Part shown: positions 2,048 to 51,149 of the stretch, piece after piece
How the letters are laid out: each line of letters opens with the position of its first letter
Numbering within the stretch: position 1 is the first letter of the stretch
The notes under the pieces: generated by a model
Database searches by the model: none
Seen by the model: the letters and a program-made list of their open reading frames with translations, nothing else
Told to the model about the DNA's origin: nothing
From: Halorarum salinum
Lineage (GTDB): Archaea; Halobacteriota; Halobacteria; Halobacteriales; Haloferacaceae
Assembly (NCBI RefSeq): GCF_013402875.1
Contig: NZ_CP058579.1
Location: 1,550,001 to 1,614,000 of the forward strand
Direction of reading: 5' to 3'
DNA length: 64,000 bases
Translations under genes and position numbers: made by a program

Positions 2048-3814
2048 ATGCCCACGGACGTCGAGCGGTGGAAGTCGGAGACGTACGGCAACGAGATCCG
2101 GGAGCACCTGCTCGAGTTCGCCGAGGAGGGCTGGGAGTCGATTCCCGAGGACGAACACGACGCCTGGTTCGAGCGCTTCAAGTGGTGGGGGCTGTACCAC
2201 CAGCGGAACGGCCAGGAGAGCTACTTCATGATGCGCATCGGCACGCCCAACGGCGTGCTGACGCCGGGACAGCTCCGTGTCGTCGGCGAGATCGCCGACG
2301 AGTACGCCCGCGGTCCGGGCGAGAACCCGGAGTTCGGCGCGGCCTACTGCGACTGGACGACCCGCCAGTCGATCCAGCTCCACTGGATCCGGCTGGAGGA
2401 CATCCCCGACGTCTTCGAGAAACTCGAGGCGAACGGCCTCTCGACCCAGCAGGCCTGCGGCGACTCCTGGCGCAACATCGTCGGCTGCCCGGTCGCGGGC
2501 AAGGACAGCAACGAGTTCGTCGACGCGCTGCCGGTGGCCCTGAACCTCCACGACACGTTCAAGGGAGACGACGACCACACCAACCTCCCCCGCAAGTGGA
2601 AGGTGTCGGTGACGGGCTGCCGCGAGGGCTGCGGGCAGGGCGACATCAACGACCTCGCGTTCGAGCCGGCCGAGAAGGACGGCCGAAAGGGGTTCAACGT
2701 CCGCGTCGGCGGCGGCCTCGCCAGGAACGAGCCGCGGTTCGCCCGCGACATCGACGTGTTCGTCGAGCCGGAGGACGCCAACGAGGTCGCCGGCGGCATG
2801 TCGGCGCTGTTCCGCGAGCACGGCAACCGCGAGGACCGCTACTCCGCGCGCATCAAGTTCCTCGTCGACGAGTGGGGCACGGAGAAGGTACGCGACGTCC
2901 TGCAGGAGGAGTTCGTCGACTTCGAACTGGAGACGGCGGCCGAGGACCTCCGCGACGAGTACACGTACAACTCCGGGCGCGCGACGGGCGGCCACCACGA
3001 CCACGTCGGCGTCCACGAGCAGAACGACGGCAACTACTACGTCGGCCTGAACGTCCTCGTCGGCCGGATGGGCGTCGACGACGTGCTGGAGCTCGCGGAC
3101 CTCGCCGACGAGTACGGCTCCGGCGAGGTGCGGCTCACCCAGCGGCAGAACGTCCTCGTGACCGACGTGCCCGAGGGGAGCCTCGACGATCTGCTCGCGG
3201 AGCCGCTGCTGGAGGACTACTCGCCCGATCCGCACCCGTTCATGCGCGGCTCCATCGCCTGCACGGGCACCGAGTTCTGCTCGCTCTCCATCGTGGAGAC
3301 GAAGAACCGGCAGGTTCGGTACGCCCGCTGGCTGAAGGAGAACGTCGAACTCCCCGACGGCGTCGAGGACTTCCACATCCACCTCTCGGGCTGCACTGCC
3401 TCGTGCGCCCAGCCGCAGATCGCGGACATCAGCCTCCGCGGGATGAAGACCCGGAAGGACGGCGAGGCGGTCGAGGCGCTCGACGTCGGCCTCGGCGGCG
3501 GCCTCGGCGAGGACCCGCGATTCGCCGACTGGGTCGGCCAGCGTATCCCGGCCGACGAGGTGCCCGGCGCCATCGCGAACCTGCTGGCGAGCTTCGAAGA
3601 GCGGCGTGAGGGCGACGAGAGCTTCCGCGACTTCGTCGAGCGCAGCGACGAGGAGACGCTGGAGGAACTCGTCGAGCCCGAGGAGACCTCCTACGAGGAC
3701 CCGTACATGCACAACACGAAGCTGACGTGGTACCCGTACGCCGAGGAGGACACGATGGACGACAGCCCGGCGCCCGCCCGCGCTGACGGAACGCCCATCA
3801 CCTCGGACGACTAA
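2048..3814 (+). CDS. Ferredoxin-dependent nitrite/sulfite reductase
   Basis: This 588-residue protein belongs to the siroheme / 4Fe-4S family that reduces nitrite to ammonia or sulfite to sulfide with six electrons, usually from ferredoxin. The cluster-binding motif is complete: C-x5-C (ACTGTEFC, near residues 404-410) and C-x3-C (GCTASC, near 448-452). The N-terminal half repeats the fold and holds a second Cys-rich stretch (GCREGCGQGDIND). ATG at 2048 is preferred over an in-frame ATG at 1997 because the family homology begins at MPTDVERW and a TATA-like GCTTTAGG lies about 30 nt upstream. A small partner gene follows 9 nt downstream. Sequence alone does not separate assimilatory nitrite from sulfite reductase. 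Confidence 0.9.
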   Translation: MPTDVERWKSETYGNEIREHLLEFAEEGWESIPEDEHDAWFERFKWWGLYHQRNGQESYFMMRIGTPNGVLTPGQLRVVGEIADEYARGPGENPEFGAAYCDWTTRQSIQLHWIRLEDIPDVFEKLEANGLSTQQACGDSWRNIVGCPVAGKDSNEFVDALPVALNLHDTFKGDDDHTNLPRKWKVSVTGCREGCGQGDINDLAFEPAEKDGRKGFNVRVGGGLARNEPRFARDIDVFVEPEDANEVAGGMSALFREHGNREDRYSARIKFLVDEWGTEKVRDVLQEEFVDFELETAAEDLRDEYTYNSGRATGGHHDHVGVHEQNDGNYYVGLNVLVGRMGVDDVLELADLADEYGSGEVRLTQRQNVLVTDVPEGSLDDLLAEPLLEDYSPDPHPFMRGSIACTGTEFCSLSIVETKNRQVRYARWLKENVELPDGVEDFHIHLSGCTASCAQPQIADISLRGMKTRKDGEAVEALDVGLGGGLGEDPRFADWVGQRIPADEVPGAIANLLASFEERREGDESFRDFVERSDEETLEELVEPEETSYEDPYMHNTKLTWYPYAEEDTMDDSPAPARADGTPITSDD

Positions 3815-48717: not shown

Positions 48718-49027
48718 TGGTAGCGATCGACACGGCCGAATTCCTCGTCGAACGTCGATTTCGGACTTCGTTGGTCGATACGGGGACGCCATCGATCGCT
48801 CGGTAGCGGCGACGTGTGCATCGTCCGGTACGGATGAGCCAGTCGCCGACCACGAAACCCGTCCCGTCACCGTTCGGCTACCCTCCCGACCCACAGGTTC
48901 CTACGAGGACGCCCGAGTTAGAGTCCGTCGAGGTTGACAGGTCCAGTACCCACAGGGAACCGCCAAAGCGGAGGCCGTAGCGCCCGTCAGTTCGACGAAA
49001 AATGTGCCGGATAGTCGGGGAGTGGAA
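48718..49027. other. Intergenic gap, nothing recognised
   Basis: About 310 nt between the nitrile hydratase promoter and the 3' end of the glutamine-rich gene. Composition is less G+C-rich than in the genes. I find no RNA gene, repeat or ORF with start signals. Confidence 0.4.
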
Positions 49028-49579
49028 CTATTGGATCGGCTGCTGCCCGCCCATCTGGGACTGTCCACCCATCTGGGACTGCCCGCCCATCTGTTGCTGG
49101 GGCCCTGACTGCATGACTTGCTGGCTCGCCTGTGAAACGGTCTGAGCGAGCTGCTCCGCCTGCTGGACGACCTGTTGGACGCCCGGCACCTGCGACTGCT
49201 GGAGCTGCTGGGAGGCTTGCTGGAACGCTTGTTGGGTGCACTGGCTGATCGTTTGCGCGTGCGGGGACTGTCGGAGGAGCAGCTTCTTCTGGACGTGTGC
49301 GATGTCGCTGAGGTCCTCCAACTGTATCGCAGTGAAGCGATCTCCCTGGTGGATCGCCTGGGCTTGCGCCCACTCCGCGTCCGTTTCGATCTGTTCGAGC
49401 GAGTAGATGGCCTGTGAAACCTGCTGCGGGAGGGACTGCTCGAAGCCCTGCTGTTGCTGTGGCTGCTGTTGCTGTTGCTGTGGCTGCTGTTGCTGTGGCT
49501 GCTGTTGCTGTTGCTGTGGCTGCTGTTGTTGTTGTGGCTGCTGTCGCTGCTGTTGCTGTGGCTGCTGCAGTTGTGACAT
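49028..49579 (-). CDS. Glutamine-rich low-complexity protein
   Basis: This 183-residue protein has an extreme composition. Residues 1-45 are almost only Gln and Pro in QQQQP units. A helical middle (QQVSQAIYSLEQIETDAEWA; QLEDLSDIAHVQKKLLLRQS) is followed by a second Gln-rich helix and three QMGGQS-like repeats at the C-terminus. Acidic residues are rare outside the middle, unlike other proteins here. Expression signals are strong: the TATA-like TGTATAACGT (49634-49643) and the ribosome-binding site GGAGGAGAGGTG just before ATG 49579. No family recognised. The sequence resembles prion-like or condensate-forming proteins in composition only. Confidence 0.78.
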   Translation of the reverse strand: MSQLQQPQQQQRQQPQQQQQPQQQQQQPQQQQPQQQQQQPQQQQGFEQSLPQQVSQAIYSLEQIETDAEWAQAQAIHQGDRFTAIQLEDLSDIAHVQKKLLLRQSPHAQTISQCTQQAFQQASQQLQQSQVPGVQQVVQQAEQLAQTVSQASQQVMQSGPQQQMGGQSQMGGQSQMGGQQPIQ

Positions 49580-49604
49580 GGTTCACCTCTCCTCCACGAT
49601 GACG

Positions 49605-49630
49605 CACTCCGGAGCACGCCCCGCGGAGTG
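49605..49630. promoter_or_regulatory. Palindrome in the leader of the glutamine-rich gene
   Basis: CACTCCG (49605-49611) and CGGAGTG (49624-49630) are exact complements 12 nt apart. They lie between the TATA-like box and the ribosome-binding site, around the likely transcription start. An operator or a small 5'-UTR hairpin is possible. Confidence 0.45.
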
Positions 49631-49633
49631 CTA

Positions 49634-49643
49634 CGTTATACAA
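49634..49643 (-). promoter_or_regulatory. TATA-like box of the glutamine-rich protein gene
   Basis: TGTATAACGT on the minus strand predicts a start near 49612, giving a leader of about 33 nt with a ribosome-binding site. This differs from the leaderless pattern of most genes here. Confidence 0.6.
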
Positions 49644-49997
49644 TGCCACGGCTGAAAAACACCGATGACCGTTACTCTTCGCCAGCTAATACTACTCGCT
49701 GGTAACGCGACGATGGGCTCGGAAAGCGACGTGCAACGGTAGTAACTGACCCTTAAGAGACGCCTTGTCCTTCACACGACGCCAGTAGCTGTCGGTACTC
49801 CGACGGTCGATTCGCCCGGTTTCGCGGGCTCCGTCGAACGGCCGTTCCACGATGAATACCGGCCGGAAAAGGGAGCAAGCGAATCCTTCCCGACGATCAC
49901 GACGAACGTACCGACCGTGAAAGCCCCCGCCGCTCGGTCCCGCCACGATCGGTCGCACGCTCCTGGCCGGGCGAGTCGGTACCGTCGCCGCCGCGAC
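49644..49997. other. Intergenic gap, nothing recognised
   Basis: About 350 nt upstream of the glutamine-rich gene and downstream of the aminotransferase. I see no repeat or RNA structure and no ORF with convincing signals. Confidence 0.4.
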
Positions 49998-51149
49998 TCA
50001 GATCAGGCCGCCTTCGGCGAGGCGGTCGATGCCCTCGCGGAGGCGCTCCTCGCTGGCCGCGTAGGAGATGCGGGCGTAGCCCGGCGCGCCGAAGGCGGAA
50101 CCGGGGACGGTGGCGACGTGGGCGTCCTGGATCGCCGACTCGGCCCAGGCGGAGTCGTCCTCGTCCACGGGGAGCATCACGTAGAACGCGCCGTCGGGCT
50201 CCGGGGGTTCGACGCCGTACTCGGCGAGCAGGTCGAGCACGAGGTCCCGCCGCTCGCGGAACGCCTCGACCATCTGGTCGACTGCGGTCTCCGTGTTCGT
50301 CAGCGCCTCGACGCCCGCGTGCTGGACGAAGTTCGTCGCACAGGAGACGGAGTGGCTGTGGAGCTTTCCGGCCTGTGGGATCAGGTCGCCCTTCGCGTGG
50401 AAGTAGCCGAGGCGCCAGCCGGTCATCGAGTACGCCTTCGAGAAGCCGTTGACGGTGACGGTTCGGTCGGCCATCCCGTCGAGGGCGGCGAGGCTCGACG
50501 GCTCGACGCCGTAGGTGATCTCCTCGTAGATCTCGTCGGAGATGACGGCGAAGTCGTGCTCGACCGCGAGGTCGCGGACCCCCTCCAGGGCGGCGTCGGA
50601 GTACACCGCGCCCGTCGGGTTCGAGGGGGAGTTCACGACGAGCAGTTCGGTGTCGTCGCTCACGGCCGCCCCGAGCGCGTCGAGTCCCGGTTCGAGCTGG
50701 AAGTCGTGGGGCGCCAGGTCGACCCGCGTCAGGTCCCCGCCGGCGAGCTTCACCATCGCCTCGTAGGAGACCCACGCGGGGTCGAGCAGCGCCACCTCGT
50801 CGCCCTCGTCGATCAGGGTCTGGACGACCTCGTACAGCGACTGCTTCGCGCCGGGCGTGACGATGACCTCGTCCGCCGCGGCGTCGACGCCGTCGTCGCG
50901 AAGCTTCCCGGCGATGGCTTCCTTCAGCGTGGGAATCCCGTTCGAGGGCGTGTAGCCCGTGTTTCCGGCGTCCATCGCGTCCTTGCCGGCCCGCACGACG
51001 TTCTCGGGGGTCGGGAAGTCCGGCTCCCCCACGGAGAGGTCGACGACGTCCACCCCGTCGGCCTCCAGCGCCGACGCGGCGTTGCCGATGGCGAGCGTCG
51101 CGGACGGCTCCACGCGGCCGATCCGGTCGGAGAACTCGTACGCCGTCAT
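49998..51149 (-). CDS. Aspartate-type aminotransferase (class I/II)
   Basis: This 383-residue fold-type I PLP enzyme has DVVDLSVGEPDFPTPENV near residue 35, the PLP pocket LLVVNSPSNPTGAVYSDAAL near 170 and FAVISDEIYEEITYG near 195. The Schiff-base lysine lies in TVNGFSKAYSMTGWRLGYFH near 232, and the substrate Arg near the end in PGYARISYAAS. The pattern fits the aspartate or broad-specificity I-gamma subgroup. It is translationally coupled to ribH (ATGA overlap), an arrangement I regard as haloarchaeal; no shared pathway is obvious. Confidence 0.9.
   Translation of the reverse strand: MTAYEFSDRIGRVEPSATLAIGNAASALEADGVDVVDLSVGEPDFPTPENVVRAGKDAMDAGNTGYTPSNGIPTLKEAIAGKLRDDGVDAAADEVIVTPGAKQSLYEVVQTLIDEGDEVALLDPAWVSYEAMVKLAGGDLTRVDLAPHDFQLEPGLDALGAAVSDDTELLVVNSPSNPTGAVYSDAALEGVRDLAVEHDFAVISDEIYEEITYGVEPSSLAALDGMADRTVTVNGFSKAYSMTGWRLGYFHAKGDLIPQAGKLHSHSVSCATNFVQHAGVEALTNTETAVDQMVEAFRERRDLVLDLLAEYGVEPPEPDGAFYVMLPVDEDDSAWAESAIQDAHVATVPGSAFGAPGYARISYAASEERLREGIDRLAEGGLI

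Follow-up and report, generated by a model that had tools for sequence, protein, structure and literature searches.

A glutamine-tailed protein of Halorarum salinum with a predicted copper-storage-protein bundle and none of the reference core cysteines

Proteins in a molar-salt cytoplasm are usually acidic. What, then, is the polar, nearly uncharged, Gln-rich protein of 183 residues (P0001) that is encoded within the window, the stretch of 64,000 nucleotides of Halorarum salinum DNA analysed here? Its open frame lies on the minus strand, from an ATG at 49579 to a TAG at 49028-49030, and divides as follows:

49028..49579, minus strand: coding sequence of the 183-residue Gln-rich protein P0001 (open frame; purifying selection on the core)
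49448..49579, minus strand: N-terminal Gln/Pro-rich disordered tail, residues 1-44 (composition, tandem repeats, low pLDDT)
49106..49426, minus strand: predicted four-helix bundle core, residues 52-158, resembling copper storage proteins (Csp), with 15/15 reference Cys positions replaced (AlphaFold2, Foldseek, profiles, Cys-column table)
49031..49105, minus strand: disordered C-terminal tail (residues 159-183) carrying the QMGGQS repeats, in 18-nt units at 49043-49096 (tandem repeats, low pLDDT)

By composition count, Gln contributes 76 of the 183 residues (41.5%) and Pro 11, while charged residues number 15 (D4 E6 K2 R3; pI 4.87). Residues 1-44 contain 34 Gln and 6 Pro, with a Pro breaking the Gln tract every 3-6 Gln, and the DNA beneath them is an imperfect 15/21/36-nt array in which the Gln codons are mixed (23 CAG and 11 CAA). 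The QMGGQS repeats of the C-terminal tail correspond to an 18-nt tandem unit present in about 2.8 copies (49043-49093). Thus, the Gln/Pro-rich N-terminus, the C-terminal repeats, and the near absence of charge, unusual for a haloarchaeon, are as the preliminary description of this locus had given them. The protein also contains five Met (three of them within the QMGG repeats), three His, and a single Cys (Cys113), and no signal peptide is apparent. No special structure is seen in the RNA 3' of the gene (z = 0.56), and the sole terminator-like match at the locus falls inside the repeat array, on the opposite strand.

Open frames overlap the gene on both strands, as might be expected if P0001 were a chance or decaying ORF that yields no product. 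That idea is already largely refuted and retains next to no probability. Ten orthologs sit in unrelated gene neighbourhoods, the reading frame is intact in every one, and dN/dS over the core is 0.16-0.32 between P0001 and the orthologs and 0.03-0.28 among the orthologs themselves. P0001 is therefore a selected gene, held by purifying selection, rather than a chance ORF. Conservation of the genes next to these orthologs is confined to near-identical Natrinema species, and so no operon partner is suggested.

To which family does the selected core belong? Direct searches of Pfam, NCBIfam, and the PDB, with either the whole protein or its middle, give chance-level matches only; P0001 does not reach the Pfam gathering cut-off of DUF326 (PF03860) and is not matched by the Csp1 model, NCBIfam TIGR04401. 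PDZ, DUF6415, and 4HB_MCP were rejected as identities for P0001, their matches being weak and below threshold. The HMM search with the middle domain that the preliminary description had proposed thus fails when made directly, but it succeeds by way of relatives. A profile of Cys-bearing haloarchaeal relatives (A3) finds the P0001 gene in its own genome at E=6.7e-8 and, in the PDB, picks up Bacillus subtilis Csp3 (5fig) at 3.7e-8, the match covering positions 14-103; designed helical repeats are also among its PDB matches, through the C-terminal half only, and the domain-spanning match is the Csp. The real P0001 core scores 35.0 bits with A3 versus 9.8 for the best of 2000 shuffles and 4.0 for the reversed sequence, indicating that the match is not an artefact of Gln content. 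In the reciprocal direction, a profile of the Cys-less members (A2) finds a nine-cysteine paralog in the same genome at 1.1e-6, and hhalign joins A2 to A3 at 98.5% over 105 columns. Residues W70, D89, R103, and S105 are invariant in a ten-sequence alignment of the family, whose members share the core.

The genome itself supplies intermediate steps. The paralog just mentioned is a Gln-rich protein of 230 residues, and a third member (L086, G000:C1:2119673-2119978) is a classical Csp3-like protein of 117 residues with 15 Cys and no tails. L086 passes the DUF326 cut-off; its E-values are 1.4e-15 with Streptomyces Ccsp and 4.9e-14 with BsCsp3, and its matches to Ccsp, BsCsp3, and MtCsp3 together span 1e-15 to 1e-13; TIGR04401 is matched weakly by the Cys-bearing members of the genome (9.6e-10 and 9.4e-4). 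Together, the profiles place the middle domain of P0001 in the copper-storage-protein four-helix superfamily, through a chain of haloarchaeal intermediates. The earlier statement that the protein has no named family has thus given way, although Pfam and NCBIfam do not name P0001 itself.

In a whole-genome search for relatives, 47 of the 392 Halobacteriales genomes yield a match at E<=1e-5, which in some is to a Cys-bearing paralog, and A3 matches at 1e-8 in 213 of the 392; close relatives of L086 are widespread in this order. The Csp literature that was found describes bacterial Csp only, and no description of the tailed subfamily was found in publications dealing with prions of archaea, with DUF326, or with haloarchaeal Csp, which is not proof that none exists. 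Two gene arrangements stand out among the relatives. A frame of 386 residues (L022, G264:C1:1534981-1535970) carries two Cys-poor bundle domains in succession with a Gln-rich linker between them. Elsewhere, a tandem pair is formed by two distinct Csp-like genes with Gln-rich tails (L103 and L117, G191:C11:47213-48780), one with nine core Cys and the other with fewer and a divergent core.

Structure prediction agrees with the profiles. An AlphaFold2 (AF2) model built on a 13-sequence alignment contains helices at residues 52-77, 81-102, 108-126, and 134-158 with pLDDT of about 88-98, as the helical middle noted in the preliminary description would lead one to expect, while the tails have pLDDT around or below 50. 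The top natural Foldseek matches of the model are Csp3, Csp1, and Ccsp entries, and BsCsp3 (5fig) superimposes with a TMt of 0.84-0.87 and an rmsd of about 2 A. Since the Foldseek E-values, at 0.02-0.3, are weak and the first rank goes to a redesigned Rop bundle, the fold is taken as support only. With that proviso, the core of P0001 is confidently predicted to be a Csp-type four-helix bundle.

A protein so rich in Gln could instead be of the prion-like or condensate type, with the tails driving reversible phase separation or amyloid formation upon a change in salt or temperature and the bundle serving as a spacer. The likeness drawn earlier to prion-like proteins holds as one of composition only: the richest stretch of 80 residues has 42 Q/N, and at least 30 in 80 is the threshold for a Q/N-rich low-complexity segment. 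The predicted disorder of the tails is also compatible with such a role, as is their pattern of conservation, since across the family their sequence and length are poorly conserved and their composition alone is kept. However, the core is constrained as strongly as an ordinary folded domain, and a Pro every 3-6 Gln is expected to disfavour amyloid. We consider a prion-like protein rather unlikely.

What sets P0001 apart from a copper storage protein is the interior of the bundle. None of the 15 Cys columns of the Csp3 from its own genome (L086) is kept; the residues found there are A, L, A, A, A, T, L, T, F, A, L, V, V, L, and V. The sole Cys, Cys113, lies one column out of register with a reference Cys, and the Cys-rich HxxHC segment has lost its His residues. 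Every Cys of Csp3 faces the inside of the bundle (PMC5171941), and the replacements in P0001 would thus represent a thiolate core repacked with small and hydrophobic residues. If a Cu(I)-binding interior lined with thiolates has in this way become an ordinary hydrophobic core, the domain would no longer store copper. By sequence, then, copper storage by P0001 is very unlikely; the protein appears to be Csp-derived in descent and predicted fold but not a Csp by the feature that defines Csp function, the core Cys. A residual metal role, with copper held by Met, His, or Cys113, has potential ligands in the five Met, three His, and one Cys. Besides the loss of 15/15 core Cys, the register of Cys113, and the missing His, it has to contend with the reduction of the C-tail Met repeats in the closest orthologs, and we regard it as very improbable.

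The relatives of P0001 form a graded series in the number of core Cys, from 15 to 9 to 4-5 to 0-3. On a tree of 60 rows, which was midpoint-rooted and has many unresolved forks, these four classes need 4 changes versus 28.8 for shuffled labels, and the clade containing P0001 has support of 100/100 and a long branch. Outgroup reasoning with the Cys-rich bacterial Csp3s leads us to infer that the direction of change is loss. Gln-rich tails, with a Gln share of 20-77% in the N-terminal tail, are present in the 9, 4-5, and 0-3 Cys classes and absent from the 15-Cys class. They are thus a trait of the whole haloarchaeal subfamily, Cys-bearing members included, and probably arose before the Cys were fully lost.

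Upstream of the P0001 gene are three sequence features:

49584..49592, minus strand: SD-like GGAGAGGTG, just upstream of the ATG (sequence; not conserved in orthologs)
49634..49643, minus strand: TATA-like TTGTATAACG (sequence; not conserved in orthologs)
49666..49675, minus strand: GTAACGGTCA, a weak fit to AACRGTNG, the promoter element seen in the tailed relatives (a score this high is reached by about 5% of random stretches)

The TATA and ribosome-binding signals from which high expression had been predicted do exist as TATA-like and SD-like sites, but the orthologs share neither of them in their upstream regions, and thus high expression is unsupported. The third feature refers to an element of the wider family, AACRGT followed 5-14 nt on by TTTA or TTAA, which occurs upstream of 41 of 55 tailed genes, Cys-rich and Cys-less, and in 1.2% of random stretches (the loci concerned include L020, L026, L030-L041, and L052-L081). 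Repeats of it, spaced by 9-10 or about 21 bp, are frequent, and it was found upstream of none of the four untailed Csp3s examined. Although the element is strong in other genera, its match at P0001 would arise by chance in about 5% of cases, and no function is claimed for it there.

A longer form of the element, AACRGTNGNNNCNGTTTA, gave 46 sites in an exact scan of 20 genomes, versus 1 for the reversed control; within one haloarchaeal family, each genome has 3-6 of them. Each of the tandem genes L103 and L117 has its own copy of the promoter element. Other genes behind AACRGTNGNNNCNGTTTA (L100-L129) encode DUF7282 secreted, halocyanin-domain, polysaccharide deacetylase, and secreted pentapeptide-like repeat proteins, together with Arg/Pro/Gly-rich low-complexity proteins and one DUF7344 protein. 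Apart from the tailed Csp-like genes, those that follow AACRGTNGNNNCNGTTTA thus have mostly cell-surface functions, and the motif looks like the mark of an undescribed regulon.

Could P0001 act together with its Cys-bearing relatives? As a pseudo-subunit, it would co-assemble with one of two proteins that its own genome also encodes, the Cys-bearing paralog with tails or the Csp3 without them, and tune copper loading; the shared fold and tails, and the promoter element that is likewise shared in many genera, would suit such a partnership. Yet the genes are unlinked, and four genomes with a Cys-less member (G338, G189, G261, and G394) have no A3 match as strong as the tailed Cys-bearing paralogs, so that such a paralog is unlikely to be an obligatory partner. 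This arrangement seems to us quite improbable.

The gene itself is a probable newcomer to its site, which lies within an interval of distinct composition:

48739..50006, strand not assigned: low-GC interval with the P0001 gene, probable lateral insertion (GC; the congener interval is unrelated, the flanks are collinear)

The GC content of this interval (1269 bp) is 61.8% versus 70.9% for the window. P0001 is absent from both of the congeners examined (G001 and G002), in which the flanking genes are collinear and the matching interval, of 767 and 114 bp, is unrelated in sequence. Its closest relatives, 63-70% identical, belong to Natrinema, Haloterrigena, Halomicrococcus, and one uncultured member of the Halobacteriales. 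Together, the absence from congeners, the low GC, and the nearest relatives in Natrinema and Haloterrigena make lateral acquisition probable and the simplest reading; loss of the gene from both congeners is a possible alternative. A search of plasmids found just three partial matches (42-43%), in Natrinema, IMG/VR scans found no viral relatives, and across 393 genomes sampled from the whole phylum the Cys-less profile A2 matched nothing beyond its own order. In G001, the syntenic interval (L094, positions 2560-3327) holds unrelated sequence of 71% GC, and thus the site looks like a variable slot. By eye, that G001 sequence reads like a membrane-protein gene, a DedA-like candidate.

We consider it reasonably likely that P0001 derives from the Csp bundle, has lost the core Cys, was acquired laterally, and, with its disordered Gln-rich tails, acts as an oligomeric scaffold or hub. 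Csp3 forms tetramers (PMC5171941), and by analogy we infer that Csp-like oligomerisation is kept. If so, P0001 would serve as a small hub in the cytosol, presenting several uncharged tails of Gln/Pro and Gln/Gly type for contacts that are weak and multivalent; in the high-salt cytoplasm, its role would be structural or one of assembly. Against the hub reading stand the poor conservation of tail sequence and length, the weak Foldseek E-values with a designed Rop bundle first, and a direction of Cys change that comes from outgroup reasoning on a tree with many unresolved forks. A wider proposal is that haloarchaea recast the Csp bundle as a metal-free oligomeric core with Gln-rich tails, a salt-adapted multivalent condensate or scaffold system whose paralogs preserve each step from 15 to 0 Cys and which possibly answers to a regulator common also to cell-surface proteins; taken whole, this is speculative and we would lean against it.

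An orphan low-complexity protein is now placed in a family, and that family offers a natural series (15, 9, 4-5, and 0-3 core Cys) along which a fold for metal storage appears to lose its metal site, keep its scaffold, and gain disordered tails. The series lets one test how a hydrophobic core replaces a thiolate-packed one, and the subfamily lets one test Gln-rich tails as interaction modules in a molar-salt cytoplasm.

Compared with known systems, P0001 resembles Csp3 and Ccsp (BsCsp3, 5FIG; MtCsp3, 5ARM; Streptomyces Ccsp, 6EI0; DUF326, PF03860) in its predicted four-helix bundle of about equal length. However, the core of Csp3s contains 18-19 Cys and Gln-rich tails are lacking (PMC5171941), whereas P0001 has 0/15 of the reference Cys and tails on both sides. 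Csp1, which is Tat-exported and has 13 Cys (PMC5171941), belongs to a family (TIGR04401) whose fold P0001 is predicted to share, and from which it differs in that it lacks both core Cys and any apparent signal peptide. Eukaryotic prion-like and polyQ condensate proteins are similar in tail composition, without homology, and unlike them P0001 has a Gln tract interrupted by Pro. The nearest counterparts are the Gln-tailed 9-Cys and 4-5-Cys Csp-like proteins of haloarchaea (L002/L061 in the same genome; L020, L026, and L033), which have the core, the Gln-rich tails, and the branch of the superfamily in common with P0001 but, unlike it, retain 4-9 core cysteines. With a Csp-like core between two Gln-rich tails of low charge, P0001 falls within this Gln-tailed haloarchaeal subfamily.
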